Of a stretch of DNA of 38,099 nucleotides, positions 2,253 through 5,945 are shown piece after piece. How positions within the stretch are numbered: position 1 is the stretch's first letter; each line of letters opens with the position of its first letter. A model generated the notes under the pieces. The model was not told the origin of the DNA, ran no database searches, and saw only the letters and a program-made list of their open reading frames with translations. This DNA comes from Tepidanaerobacteraceae bacterium. Lineage in GTDB: Bacteria; Bacillota; Thermosediminibacteria; Thermosediminibacterales; Thermosediminibacteraceae. The DNA lies in NCBI GenBank assembly GCA_030446005.1, contig JASUSP010000015.1:1-38099 (forward strand). The letters are read 5' to 3'. The position numbers and the translations under genes were made by a program.

Positions 2253-2311
2253 CATTTTGCAGACTTAATGTGGAAAGATATTTGTTTCTTTTTATACTAG
2301 AGGTGTGTTTT

Positions 2312-3070
2312 GTGAGAATGGAATTTTATCCTGAAGAGAAAGACTACTTTTTTAAGAAGACTGACGGCCGCGTCAAATTGGTATCGGCAATTTTTAGTAT
2401 CGCAGCTCTTTCGACTATCCGCACATGGGAATATCTCGCCGCCTGTTTAGGGTTTTATATTTTTCTTCTTTGCCTTACCGGATTTCCGGTTTTAAAGTGG
2501 ATGCGGCGCATTTTCTTTCCGGTTTTGTTTGCAGGTGCCATGAGCGCCGCGGCTGCTTTTGCCAATTTTTATGCGGGTAGGCAATACGCCGGCATAGACG
2601 GTGCCGTCCTTTTTTTAAGGGCACTTTGCGCCATAGTCGTATTAAGTTCCGTGATTTACAGCATGAGCTTCAGGGAGCTGGTCTTTTCCTTAAAGGTTTT
2701 GCACGTTCCCGATGTACTGGTGAACCTCATCGGTTTTACAATTAGGTATGCGAATATATTAACCGATGAACTTTCAAGGATGAAGAAAGCGAGAAAGGCA
2801 AGGGGATATTCGAAGGGCAGGAACTTCTGGCATACCGCCACCATGAAGGTGATAGGGCAGACGGTCGCCGTCTTGTTTCTTAGATCTTACGAAAGAAGCG
2901 AAAGGGTATATCAAGCAATGCTATCTAGAGGTTACGGCGGGGATATAAGGTTACTTTCAGCTCCAGCAAGACCGGGGAAAAAAGATTTCGCTTTTGGAGC
3001 GCTGATGGCCGGAGTGCCGCTTTTTTTCAAAGTCGCCGAAATGGGGGCATTTTCATGGATTATGCGGTAG
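2312..3070 (+). CDS. cbiQ: ECF transporter T component, CbiQ/EcfT type
   Basis: The transmembrane coupling subunit of an energy-coupling-factor (ECF) ABC importer, here for Ni2+ or Co2+. It links the ATPase to the substrate-binding CbiM protein. Several hydrophobic helices cover the first two thirds, and the cytoplasmic coupling region carries the two family arginine motifs, RKARGYSKGR and YQAMLSRGYGG. The open frame begins at 2270, but GTG 2312 is the likely start because AGAGGTG lies six bases upstream; that gives 252 residues, normal for the family. The gene overlaps cbiO by 16 bases, so the two are translationally coupled. The cbiQO-then-cbiMN order with a separate promoter before cbiM is less common than a single cbiMNQO operon. 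Confidence 0.9.
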   Translation: MRMEFYPEEKDYFFKKTDGRVKLVSAIFSIAALSTIRTWEYLAACLGFYIFLLCLTGFPVLKWMRRIFFPVLFAGAMSAAAAFANFYAGRQYAGIDGAVLFLRALCAIVVLSSVIYSMSFRELVFSLKVLHVPDVLVNLIGFTIRYANILTDELSRMKKARKARGYSKGRNFWHTATMKVIGQTVAVLFLRSYERSERVYQAMLSRGYGGDIRLLSAPARPGKKDFAFGALMAGVPLFFKVAEMGAFSWIMR

Positions 3071-3891
3071 AAATTCATAACCTTGCTTTCCGGCATAAAG
3101 ACGGAACCGTAGCGCTCAGAGGCGTCACGATGAAAGTAAAAAAAGGCTCAAAGACGGCCATCTTGGGACACAATGGTGCGGGAAAATCCACGCTTCTTTT
3201 TCATTTGAACGGCATATATCTGCCTCAGCAGGGAAGTGTAAAAATTTTGGGAGTGGAGGTCAACCGGAAAAACGAGAAACTGGTAAGAAAAATGGTGGGC
3301 CTTGTGTTCCAGGACCCCGACGATCAGGTTTTTTCCCCGACGGTATGGGACGATGTAGCCTTCGGCCCGGCAAATTTCGGCCTTCCTCGGGAAGAAATCG
3401 AAATCAGGGTAAAGGAGGCTCTGAGGGCCGTGGTTATGGAGGAATTCGCCGATAAAATGCCCTTTCATTTGAGTTACGGCCAGAGAAAAAGGGTGGCCAT
3501 AGCGGGGGTGCTTGCAGTGAAGCCCGAGATTTTGGTGCTGGATGAGCCTCACGCTTTCCTCGACCCGAAAAGCAAGGAAAATCTTTTTGATATCCTGGAA
3601 AAGGAAAACCAGGATGGGAGAACGGTTATTATCGCCACCCATGATGTAGATTTTGCCTATGAATGGGCCGATGAAATTGTGGTGATGAAAGAAGGGAGAG
3701 TTCTGGCTCAAGGGGGGACTGAAGTTCTTTGCAGGGAAGAAATAATAAAAGGGGCCGGACTGGAATTTCCCAAGGTAGTCAGGTTTTTTAACAGGATTCA
3801 CGGATTAAAGGTTGAAAAAGCTCCGAAAACAATAGATGAAGCAGCAGAGCTGGTGAATAAACTTCTTAAAAATATACCGCAAAGGGATTGA
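3055..3891 (+). CDS. cbiO: ECF transporter ATPase, CbiO/NikO type
   Basis: The ATP-hydrolysing subunit of the Ni/Co ECF importer, 278 residues, cytoplasmic and peripheral to the membrane. All ABC motifs are visible in order: Walker A GHNGAGKST (about residue 38), Q-loop QDPDDQVF (about 86), signature LSYGQRKR (about 139), Walker B ILVLDEPHA (about 157-165), and the switch histidine in ATHDVDFAYEW (about 196). The LSYGQ form of the signature is common in CbiO/NikO. The C-terminal extension beyond the ATPase core, about 60 residues, is usual for CbiO. Start ATG 3055 lies inside the end of cbiQ. The -35 box of the next promoter overlaps its stop codon. Confidence 0.93.
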   Translation: MDYAVEIHNLAFRHKDGTVALRGVTMKVKKGSKTAILGHNGAGKSTLLFHLNGIYLPQQGSVKILGVEVNRKNEKLVRKMVGLVFQDPDDQVFSPTVWDDVAFGPANFGLPREEIEIRVKEALRAVVMEEFADKMPFHLSYGQRKRVAIAGVLAVKPEILVLDEPHAFLDPKSKENLFDILEKENQDGRTVIIATHDVDFAYEWADEIVVMKEGRVLAQGGTEVLCREEIIKGAGLEFPKVVRFFNRIHGLKVEKAPKTIDEAAELVNKLLKNIPQRD

Positions 3892-3917
3892 CAAAAATAT
3901 AACAAATTTTTTATAAT
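3888..3917 (+). promoter_or_regulatory. Sigma-A promoter for cbiM operon
   Basis: A perfect TTGACA (3888-3893) and a perfect TATAAT (3912-3917) with an 18-base spacer. Transcription would begin near 3924 and produce a leader of about 130 nt before cbiM. The -35 box overlaps the cbiO stop codon. Confidence 0.85.
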
Positions 3918-3952
3918 AATGTCAGAGGAAAAATTGAAAAGATTTTAGAAAA

Positions 3953-4025
3953 GTACCATGAAGGTACAAAACAGCCATGAAGGCCTCAAGTGGATGAATC
4001 CACAAGGCTTCTTCATGGCTTTTTT
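3953..4025 (+). promoter_or_regulatory. Structured leader with terminator upstream of cbiM (attenuator or metal riboswitch candidate)
   Basis: Directly downstream of the promoter are a small hairpin GTACC/GGTAC (3953-3967) and then a long terminator-type stem. AGCCATGAAG (3973-3982) pairs with CTTCATGGCT (4011-4020), GCCT (3983-3986) with AGGC (4005-4008), and an inner hairpin GTGGAT/ATCCAC (3990-4003) caps it. A run of T follows to 4025, and cbiM's AGGAGG is at about 4040. The octamer CCATGAAG occurs twice, in the first hairpin (3956-3963) and in the terminator arm (3975-3982), so the descending arm could pair with either copy. A terminator between promoter and gene implies conditional read-through. 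I cannot match it to a named riboswitch by eye. Confidence 0.65.
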
Positions 4026-4054
4026 AATTACGAATACATAAGGAGGAACGAATT

Positions 4055-4711
4055 ATGCACATTCCCGATGGTTTTCTCGATGCCAAAACCGCAGTTGCCA
4101 CATCAGCCGCAAGTTTAGCTGCCCTTAAGTACAGCATGACAAAAGTAAAAGAGGAACTGGGCGAAAGAGATGTTCCTTCCCTGGGTGTAATGGCAGCCTT
4201 CATTTTTGCCGCTCAAATGGTCAATTTCCCGGTAATGGCCGGCACCTCGGGCCATCTGCTGGGGGCGGCGCTGGCTGCCATTTTGTTCGGACCTTACAGT
4301 GCCAGCCTCATCCTGAGCGCAGTACTTATAGTCCAATGCCTTTTTTTCCAGGACGGGGGCATTACTGCGCTAGGTGCCAACATTTTAAATATGGCCGTGG
4401 CAGCCACTTTTGTTGCCAGCTGCGTTTACAGCGCCGTTAAAAAATTGAAATTTGCAGGAAGCGAGATAGCAGCCGTATTTCTTTCCGCCTGGATCTCTGT
4501 TCTTGTCGGGGCGTTTTTAACTAGTGTTGAGCTTGCACTATCGGACACCGTGCCCTTGAATGCGGTCATCGCTCCCATGATGCTGGTTCATGCCGTCATA
4601 GGTATTGGTGAAGGTATTATAACCTGTGCGGCGGTGGGCTATGTAAGGAGATTTTTAGATGGGAAATCAGGAGCCTGCGTAAATTCTGACGCCGGAGGTG
4701 GGGTAAATTGA
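4055..4711 (+). CDS. cbiM: Ni/Co-binding membrane subunit CbiM/NikM
   Basis: The substrate-capture subunit of the ECF metal importer, 218 residues, an integral membrane protein. It begins MHIPDG, the family signature in which the free N-terminus and His2 bind the metal deep in the membrane, and it has the second conserved histidine at His67 (GTSGHLLG). Several hydrophobic helices fill the rest. AGGAGG precedes ATG 4055 at good spacing. The stop overlaps the next gene's TTG start by four bases. Whether it carries Ni2+ or Co2+ cannot be read from the protein alone; the neighbouring PDGLE protein and CooT favour nickel. Confidence 0.95.
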   Translation: MHIPDGFLDAKTAVATSAASLAALKYSMTKVKEELGERDVPSLGVMAAFIFAAQMVNFPVMAGTSGHLLGAALAAILFGPYSASLILSAVLIVQCLFFQDGGITALGANILNMAVAATFVASCVYSAVKKLKFAGSEIAAVFLSAWISVLVGAFLTSVELALSDTVPLNAVIAPMMLVHAVIGIGEGIITCAAVGYVRRFLDGKSGACVNSDAGGGVN

Positions 4712-4986
4712 ACCGGTGGGCGATGTTGTTATTTCTGGCTGTAGTTGTTGCGGCTTTTTTGTCGCCTTTTGCTTCTCCTCATCCGGACGGCCTCGAGAGG
4801 GTAGCGGAAGATCTGGGTTTTTTAAAAAAAGGCGAATCTCCGGTGCTCCAATTTTCGCCAATGCCCGATTACACCGTTGCAACCATAAATGACGAAAGGG
4901 TATCTACGGCGCTGGCCGGCGTGACCGGAACTCTAATTACTCTGGCTTTTGTCTGGGGTTGGATGAAGTTAATCTCCAAATTTTAG
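4708..4986 (+). CDS. PDGLE-domain accessory subunit (NikN/CbiN-like)
   Basis: A 92-residue membrane protein with a hydrophobic N-terminal segment (about residues 4-22), the extracytoplasmic PDGLE motif (HPDGLERVAEDLGF, about residues 25-38) and a C-terminal membrane helix (about 68-88). PDGLE-domain proteins accompany CbiM/NikM in ECF nickel and cobalt importers and are required with it for transport. The start is TTG 4708, overlapping the cbiM stop, so translation is coupled. Compared with classical CbiN, the PDGLE type is found more with nickel systems. Confidence 0.85.
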   Translation: MNRWAMLLFLAVVVAAFLSPFASPHPDGLERVAEDLGFLKKGESPVLQFSPMPDYTVATINDERVSTALAGVTGTLITLAFVWGWMKLISKF

Positions 4987-5076
4987 CGAATGCACGGTGA
5001 AAGTTTCCAGGGATACTTGAAAAAAGTTGCCCGTATTTTAAAATAGTACTGAGGGATTTTGGGAGGGAGCTTTAAT

Positions 5077-5313
5077 ATGATGGATGGTCATAACATGACC
5101 GGAAATGGTGAAAGCAAAAAAGAAATCGATACCTTGCGGGTTTTGCTCGCCCACTGGATCGAGCACAACCGATCCCATGAAGAGAATTTCCGCAGCTGGG
5201 TTGAAAAATCGAAAAACCTCGGGAAAATTGAGGCTTCCAGAATGATTGAAAAAGCCGCCGATGCTTTGAAGGCTGCCAGCGACTTTCTACTAGAAGCCAA
5301 AAGACATATATAA
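5077..5313 (+). CDS. Small histidine-containing protein of the nickel cluster
   Basis: A predicted soluble, mostly helical protein of about 78 residues with a His/Glu-rich helix (HWIEHNRSHEENFRSW, about residues 27-42) and an alanine-rich second helix. There is no signal peptide or membrane segment. The open frame extends back to TTG 5059, but GGGAGGGAG sits seven bases before ATG 5077, which fixes the start. It lies between the importer and cooT, 12 bases before the CooT start, so it is very likely part of metal handling. The clustered histidines could bind Ni2+. I do not recognise a characterised family. Confidence 0.7.
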   Translation: MMDGHNMTGNGESKKEIDTLRVLLAHWIEHNRSHEENFRSWVEKSKNLGKIEASRMIEKAADALKAASDFLLEAKRHI

Positions 5314-5325
5314 GGAGTGAAAGTT

Positions 5326-5526
5326 ATGTGTGAATCGAAGGTCTACCTTTACGAACGGGGCGAAGAAAGGGAGATAATGGATAATGTTATTTTTATAGAA
5401 CCTCAGGGAGACAGGGTCTTCATGTACAACCTACTGGGGGAACAAAAGATTCTGGATGCAAGAATAAAAGAAATAAAACTGCTGGAACATAAAATTATTC
5501 TGGAAAGCAGGAAAGATAAAAAATGA
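5326..5526 (+). CDS. cooT: CooT-family nickel-binding protein
   Basis: A small protein of 66 residues of the CooT family, a cytoplasmic nickel-binding accessory protein for carbon monoxide dehydrogenase maturation in Rhodospirillum rubrum. It begins MCESKVYLYE; the cysteine at position 2 is the Ni ligand in characterised CooT. The ending IKEIKLLEHKIILES matches the compact beta fold of the family. The ORF opens at 5317, but GGAGTG placed before ATG 5326 and the MC N-terminus decide the start. It overlaps the DUF3842 gene by four bases (ATGA). Together with the importer it indicates that nickel enzymes (CODH/ACS or hydrogenase), encoded elsewhere, are the destination. Confidence 0.88.
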   Translation: MCESKVYLYERGEEREIMDNVIFIEPQGDRVFMYNLLGEQKILDARIKEIKLLEHKIILESRKDKK

Positions 5527-5945
5527 TAATCGCGGTTGTGGATGGGATGGGAGGGGGTATAGGAAGCCAGATTATAGCACTTTTAAGGCAGGATTTACCC
5601 CCTGAAGTAAAAATATACGCCTTGGGGACCAATTCGGCAGCTACTTCAAACATGATGAAAGAAAAAGCAAACAAGGGCGCCACCGGTGAAAACGCCATCA
5701 TCTACAATGTAAACAAAGTCGATGTGATAGTCGGTTCCATGGGCATAGTTATTCCGAACTGCATGATGGGCGAGATCACTCCAAAAATCGCCGAAGCCAT
5801 AGCATCGTGCAGGGCTAAAAAAATACTTATCCCTATTGTGGATAACGAGGATATATCGGTTCTTGGTATAGAAAAAAAGCCGCTTTTCCTTTCCATAAAG
5901 GATGCCATAGAAAAGATTAAAGCCCTTTTGGAAACGGAAAAATAA
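5523..5945 (+). CDS. DUF3842 family protein
   Basis: A 140-residue soluble protein that fits the DUF3842 family of Firmicutes, whose function is unknown. It starts MIIAVVDGMGGGIGSQI, a glycine-rich loop after a beta strand typical of a Rossmann-like nucleotide-binding fold, and contains NSAATSNMMKEKANKGATGENA in its middle. Its start overlaps the cooT stop, and it ends at a terminator, making it the last gene of the nickel operon. That position suggests a role in metal handling or signalling, but this is only context. Confidence 0.8.
   Translation: MIIAVVDGMGGGIGSQIIALLRQDLPPEVKIYALGTNSAATSNMMKEKANKGATGENAIIYNVNKVDVIVGSMGIVIPNCMMGEITPKIAEAIASCRAKKILIPIVDNEDISVLGIEKKPLFLSIKDAIEKIKALLETEK

Follow-up and report, generated by a model that had tools for sequence, protein, structure and literature searches.

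How transcription reaches cbiM, a gene separated from its promoter by an intrinsic terminator, is the question raised by this locus, which lies in a 38,099-nucleotide stretch of Tepidanaerobacteraceae DNA, referred to here as the window. The sequence-only reading had placed a promoter, a strong terminator and the cbiM ribosome-binding site in succession at 3888-4054, and this arrangement is borne out by the coordinates, by its retention in relatives and by the minimum free energy of positions 3953-4025, which is -34.1 kcal/mol against -13.9 +/- 4.6 kcal/mol in Markov shuffles (z = -4.4). The answer proposed here, to which a probability of about 60% is given, is that the leader is a new dual-hairpin transcription antitermination element of a nickel/cobalt regulon, in which a factor acting on two hairpins, P1 and P2, under metal shortage would cause read-through. 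The features concerned are as follows.

2270-3891, forward strand: cbiQ and cbiO, which precede the regulated promoter (Pfam PF02361 and PF00005)
3888-3917, forward strand: sigma-70-type promoter, TTGACA at 3888-3893, an 18-nt spacer and TATAAT at 3912-3917, overlapping the cbiO stop codon and kept in relatives
3953-3967, forward strand: hairpin P1, GTACC-ATGAA-GGTAC, with both-side changes at two of its five stem pairs in a comparison of 8 leaders
3974-3984, forward strand: hairpin P2, GCC-ATGAA-GGC, which excludes the terminator, with covariation of its pairs in 33 leaders
3973-4025, forward strand: intrinsic terminator, indicated by fold, energy and covariation
4041-4046, forward strand: cbiM ribosome-binding site AGGAGG, from the sequence
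4055-4711, forward strand: cbiM, with its ATG at 4055, the substrate-specific ECF component for cobalt/nickel (Pfam PF01891, 213.9 bits)
4708-4986, forward strand: PDGLE-domain (CbiN-like) gene (Pfam PF13190)
5059-5313: small gene with no Pfam family, flanked by the PDGLE gene and cooT and belonging to the cbiM operon
5317-5526, forward strand: CooT, of the Ni(II)-binding CODH accessory protein family (Pfam PF10133, 84.1 bits; Foldseek match to 6fan and 5n76), reading MCE from 5326
5523-5945, forward strand: DUF3842 gene, whose first bases overlap cooT (Pfam PF12953, 170.6 bits)

From cbiM onward, the operon thus continues with the PDGLE gene, the small family-less gene, CooT and DUF3842. In the leader, P1 lies thirty-five bases downstream of the -10 box, and the terminator is composed of a rising arm (3973-3986), an inner hairpin (3990-4003), a descending arm (4005-4020) and a T6 run (4020-4025). 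Because the rising arm contains the 5' strand and loop of P2, P2 and the terminator are mutually exclusive. The terminator state, at -34.1 kcal/mol, is far more stable than P1 and P2 together, at -10.0 kcal/mol, so that the leader would be off by default, and something must therefore hold P2 for read-through to occur. The motif CCATGAAG is present in the leader at 3956 and 3975, and these copies had been read as rivals for one descending arm; this part of the sequence-only reading is not supported in that form, since the copies fold into separate hairpins, of which the second alone excludes the terminator. Pairing of P1 with the descending arm was also considered as an antiterminator and rejected, because it would create another hairpin before the T-run that would itself terminate. 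The conserved alternatives are instead the P2 hairpin and the terminator, with P1 as a second copy of the recognition hairpin; P1 and P2 are two copies of a single unit defined by a C-G-closed stem and an ANGRA loop. The inner hairpin of the terminator, in the window as in many other terminators, often carries a loop of the form NGAA or ANGAA (GGATGAATCC, CCGGATGAACCGG, AGCAGGAAGCT), which is possibly a third copy of the recognition loop. A leader peptide was likewise considered, the ATG of the P1 loop opening a 27-codon frame, and was rejected because this ATG is not conserved, the loops of relatives reading AAGAA, AGGAA and ACGGA.

Comparison with related cbiM leaders, which the sequence-only reading had proposed as a check, finds the promoter, P1, P2 and the terminator kept before cbiM in four groups, namely Fervidicola, Thermovorax, Thermosediminibacter and Tepidanaerobacteraceae, with compensatory changes in the stems, and supports the view of the leader as a conditional terminator. 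The P1 stem keeps its pairing in the variants GTACC/GGTAC, GTGCC/GGTGC, GTATC/GATAC and GCATC/GATGC, and among close relatives the loop is near-constant (C-A-N-G-A-A-G), with stems that vary in step. Over the wider set, the loop consensus relaxes to C-ANGRA-G, again with covarying stems, and in more distant Firmicutes the number of hairpins of this type ranges from one to four, with ANGRA loops, the last hairpin overlapping a terminator. The linkers between hairpins range from a few nt to more than 100 nt.

Pairing in a set of 33 leaders amounts to 98.5% for the P2 helix, together with 13 both-side changes, a result reached by 0 of 500 shuffles, and to 98.2% for the terminator helix, together with 30 both-side changes, these figures being biased upward because the collecting script demanded three P2 pairs and the terminator. 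Two measurements are free of this bias: P2 pair 2-14, which the script did not demand, is paired in 31 of the 33 leaders with six both-side changes, and the terminator-coupled hairpin is present in 17 of 28 cbiM leaders fetched by CbiM protein homology alone. Upstream hairpins of the P1 type were not demanded by the script either. A C-ANGRA-G hairpin stands within 160 nt upstream in 37 of 100 P2/terminator units, against a shuffle mean of 0.38, the other 63 having no strict P1 within that distance, and the ANGRA loop occurs in 39 of 74 upstream C-N5-G hairpins, against 0.6 expected.

Two covariance models were built to follow the distribution of the element: R1, which describes P1 plus the terminator, and R2, which describes the P2/terminator unit of the 33 leaders. 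Among 398 Firmicutes genomes, R1 matches 55 at E<=0.1, and R2 matches 144 at that cut-off and 91 at the stricter E<=1e-4, with up to 14 matches per genome. The script did not find the element at cbiM loci outside Firmicutes (L041-L052). The first gene behind 75 elements is most often CbiM (22), followed by NikA-type SBP (8), DUF3842 (7) and ECF S (7), and more rarely FmdE (4), DUF4198 (4), CobN (3), ZnuA-like (3) and LarC nickel insertion (2) proteins, with Fe hydrogenase, TrmO and CooT as further first genes. Proteins named by reading the sequences add CooF/CooS CODH, CooC, FecBCD-type importers and a recurring methyltransferase beside an ECF component. By this gene content, the element appears to mark a nickel/cobalt regulon.

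Several loci show particular arrangements. A class I SAM methyltransferase lies near ECF S, ZnuA-like and FecBCD importers under the element in L095, L097, L105, L111, L173 and L183, and the association of the methyltransferase with importers could represent a metallophore or cofactor pathway. In L205 (G373:C61), several lipoprotein genes stand in series, each preceded by its own element. In G024 (C252:11002-11324, near L167), DUF3842 lies beside the element in pieces with an internal stop, as a pseudogene or an assembly error.

These observations suggest a mechanism that accounts for a leader with a default terminator. Without the factor, the far more stable terminator would form and cbiM would be off. 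When nickel or cobalt is short, a trans-acting RNA-binding factor would hold P1 and then P2; with P2 held, the terminator could not form, and RNA polymerase would read into the uptake and metallocentre genes. A metal response and its direction may be inferred, the direction because the targets are uptake genes. The prime candidate for the factor would be apo CooT, encoded in the same operon in the window, perhaps together with DUF3842, but the binder may also be another protein or the RNA itself.

CooT and the element co-occur strongly. The element is present in 78 of 118 genomes with CooT and in 13 of 280 without it (odds ratio 40), Fisher p-values for such co-occurrence overstating independence because the genomes are related. 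It is also found in 12 of 16 genomes that have CooT and lack CODH, against 6 of 61 that have CODH and lack CooT (CODH being counted in 163 genomes by E-value and in 161 over the model cut-off); the element tracks CooT, not CODH. CooT is present in 78 of 91 element-bearing genomes and absent from nine of 92-100% completeness, and the weak CooT-model matches read in CooT-less genomes proved to be YqfC-like proteins, sigma factors and other proteins, not CooT. It is a nickel protein with solved structures (PDB 6fan, 5n76), for which Foldseek returned no convincing RNA-binding neighbour. CooT also lies within open reading frames some 270-330 aa long (L182 in G123, and G085, G156, G303, G324, G344, G365, G384 and G402); the L182 copy is joined to a longer domain and belongs to an operon of the order DUF3842-FmdE-CooT-CbiM. 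In the published R. rubrum work, CooT is said to have an Sm-like fold, seen in a crystal structure, and an RNA role reportedly received no experimental support. That apo CooT binds the tandem C-ANGRA-G hairpins and turns on the whole nickel/cobalt regulon, with Ni(II) at the dimer interface freeing the RNA, is a tentative proposal, possible at best.

The second candidate, DUF3842, accompanies the element even more consistently, occurring in 47 of 49 genomes with the element and in 25 of 63 without it, in a sample that was balanced on CooT, not random. Its predicted model is Rossmann-like, with a best TM of about 0.5, and the structure search with this model returned no RNA-binding neighbour; the open-access literature yielded no paper naming the family. 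FmdE was rejected as a universal partner, being absent from many element genomes. In G027 and G056, the element is present and both CooT and DUF3842 are absent, and since neither protein is universal, an RNA-only sensor may operate instead.

Such a sensor would be a tandem-hairpin riboswitch, in which a small ligand or metal ion would be bound directly by P1 and P2, which would dock with each other, the docked state blocking the terminator. It agrees with the finding that no tested protein is universal among element-bearing genomes, and the guanidine-II riboswitch likewise consists of two small look-alike stem-loops (PMC5486947). Binding would, however, turn uptake genes on, which is the wrong sign for nickel/cobalt feedback; hairpins number anywhere from 1 to 4, linkers differ in length, conservation was not seen outside the hairpins, and no Rfam riboswitch is matched. 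The riboswitch is on these grounds doubtful. The earlier suggestion of a Ni/Co-responsive RNA is accordingly retained in part: the link to nickel and cobalt stands through gene content, and direct binding of either metal would have an odd sign. That the leader belongs to no named RNA class, as was also suggested, agrees with a covariance-model search in which no Rfam family reached gathering score in the window and no Rfam 15 model did so over the element at 20 loci, most of which carry elements. Weak matches to caiA, Ocean-V and MIR530 (E 0.3-1, far below gathering) were set aside as noise. A description of the element was not found in the open-access literature, and precedent in a subscription journal is possible. 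The plainest alternative, an ordinary cbiQO terminator with chance repeats, cbiM being expressed by read-through or from another start, would explain why the terminator sits close behind cbiO, and is highly improbable, as cbiO is followed by a consensus promoter before the terminator is reached, and both hairpins and loops show conservation and reappear in front of unrelated nickel/cobalt genes.

Among known RNA-binding proteins, an ANTAR-domain protein binding both hairpins would suit an architecture of two hairpins of which the second overlaps a terminator (PMC3369931, PMC8934654), and ANTAR proteins are present in 27 of 31 tested element genomes; the genome of the window itself has one. They are absent, however, from eight element-bearing genomes of 95-100% completeness (G002, G003, G008, G009, G012, G013, G171 and G330), which largely refutes ANTAR as the general binder; the ANGRA loop is also not the A1/G4 hexaloop, and the variable linkers speak against it, leaving this explanation unlikely. 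CsrA bridges two hairpins, and a CsrA-like dimer bridging two A(N)GGA hairpins would be compatible with the occurrence of CANGGANG-like loops (CCACGGAGG, CCATGGAGG), but the GGA core is mostly broken, with A at its second G in 28 of 33 P2 loops, so that this explanation is very unlikely.

The antitermination element favoured here would matter since the control of nickel and cobalt supply in Clostridia-type Firmicutes, acetogens included, is poorly known, and a widespread element before CbiM, NikA-type, LarC, CobN and CODH genes would define a nickel/cobalt regulon in one stroke. It also gives DUF3842 a context and offers a defined RNA target on which the once-suspected RNA role of CooT can be tested directly.

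Among known systems, the closest are the ANTAR dual-hairpin elements, formed by two tandem hairpins with the second over an intrinsic terminator (PMC3369931), at which ANTAR proteins act in the eut, nas and ami leaders by way of two hexaloops with A at position 1 and G at position 4 (PMC3369931, PMC8934654). The linker length is restricted there, a 20-nt extension abolishing EutV action (PMC8934654). The present element resembles those of EutV/eut, NasR/nasF and AmiR/ami in its look-alike hairpins, in the position of P2 within the terminator rising arm and in default termination, and differs in its C-G-closed ANGRA pentaloop with G at position 3, its free linkers, its one to four copies, its nickel/cobalt genes and its occurrence in the eight genomes without ANTAR; it works like the ANTAR/eut dual-hairpin type and is outside that family. 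Guanidine-II (mini-ykkC) shares the two tiny, similar stem-loops, but the loops of the element are five bases (ANGRA), without an Rfam match, and stand before nickel/cobalt genes, not guanidine export. The guanidine-II loops are four-base ACGR. The NiCo (czcD) riboswitch, an efflux-activating RNA built on a four-way junction, responds to the same metals, whereas the element is a set of hairpins before uptake genes, and the NiCo model matches nothing in the window at gathering score or at E<=10. The cobalamin riboswitch, RF00174, often controls cbiMNQO; it has no match in the window, and the same search does recover a genuine one elsewhere, in L108 (189-372), close to a CooC/FecBCD cluster under the control of the element. 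Finally, the CooT of the window is a member of the known family (PF10133; PDB 5n76, 6fan, 6y8v), whose known role is that of a CODH maturation factor, and an RNA-binding nickel sensor in this family would be new.
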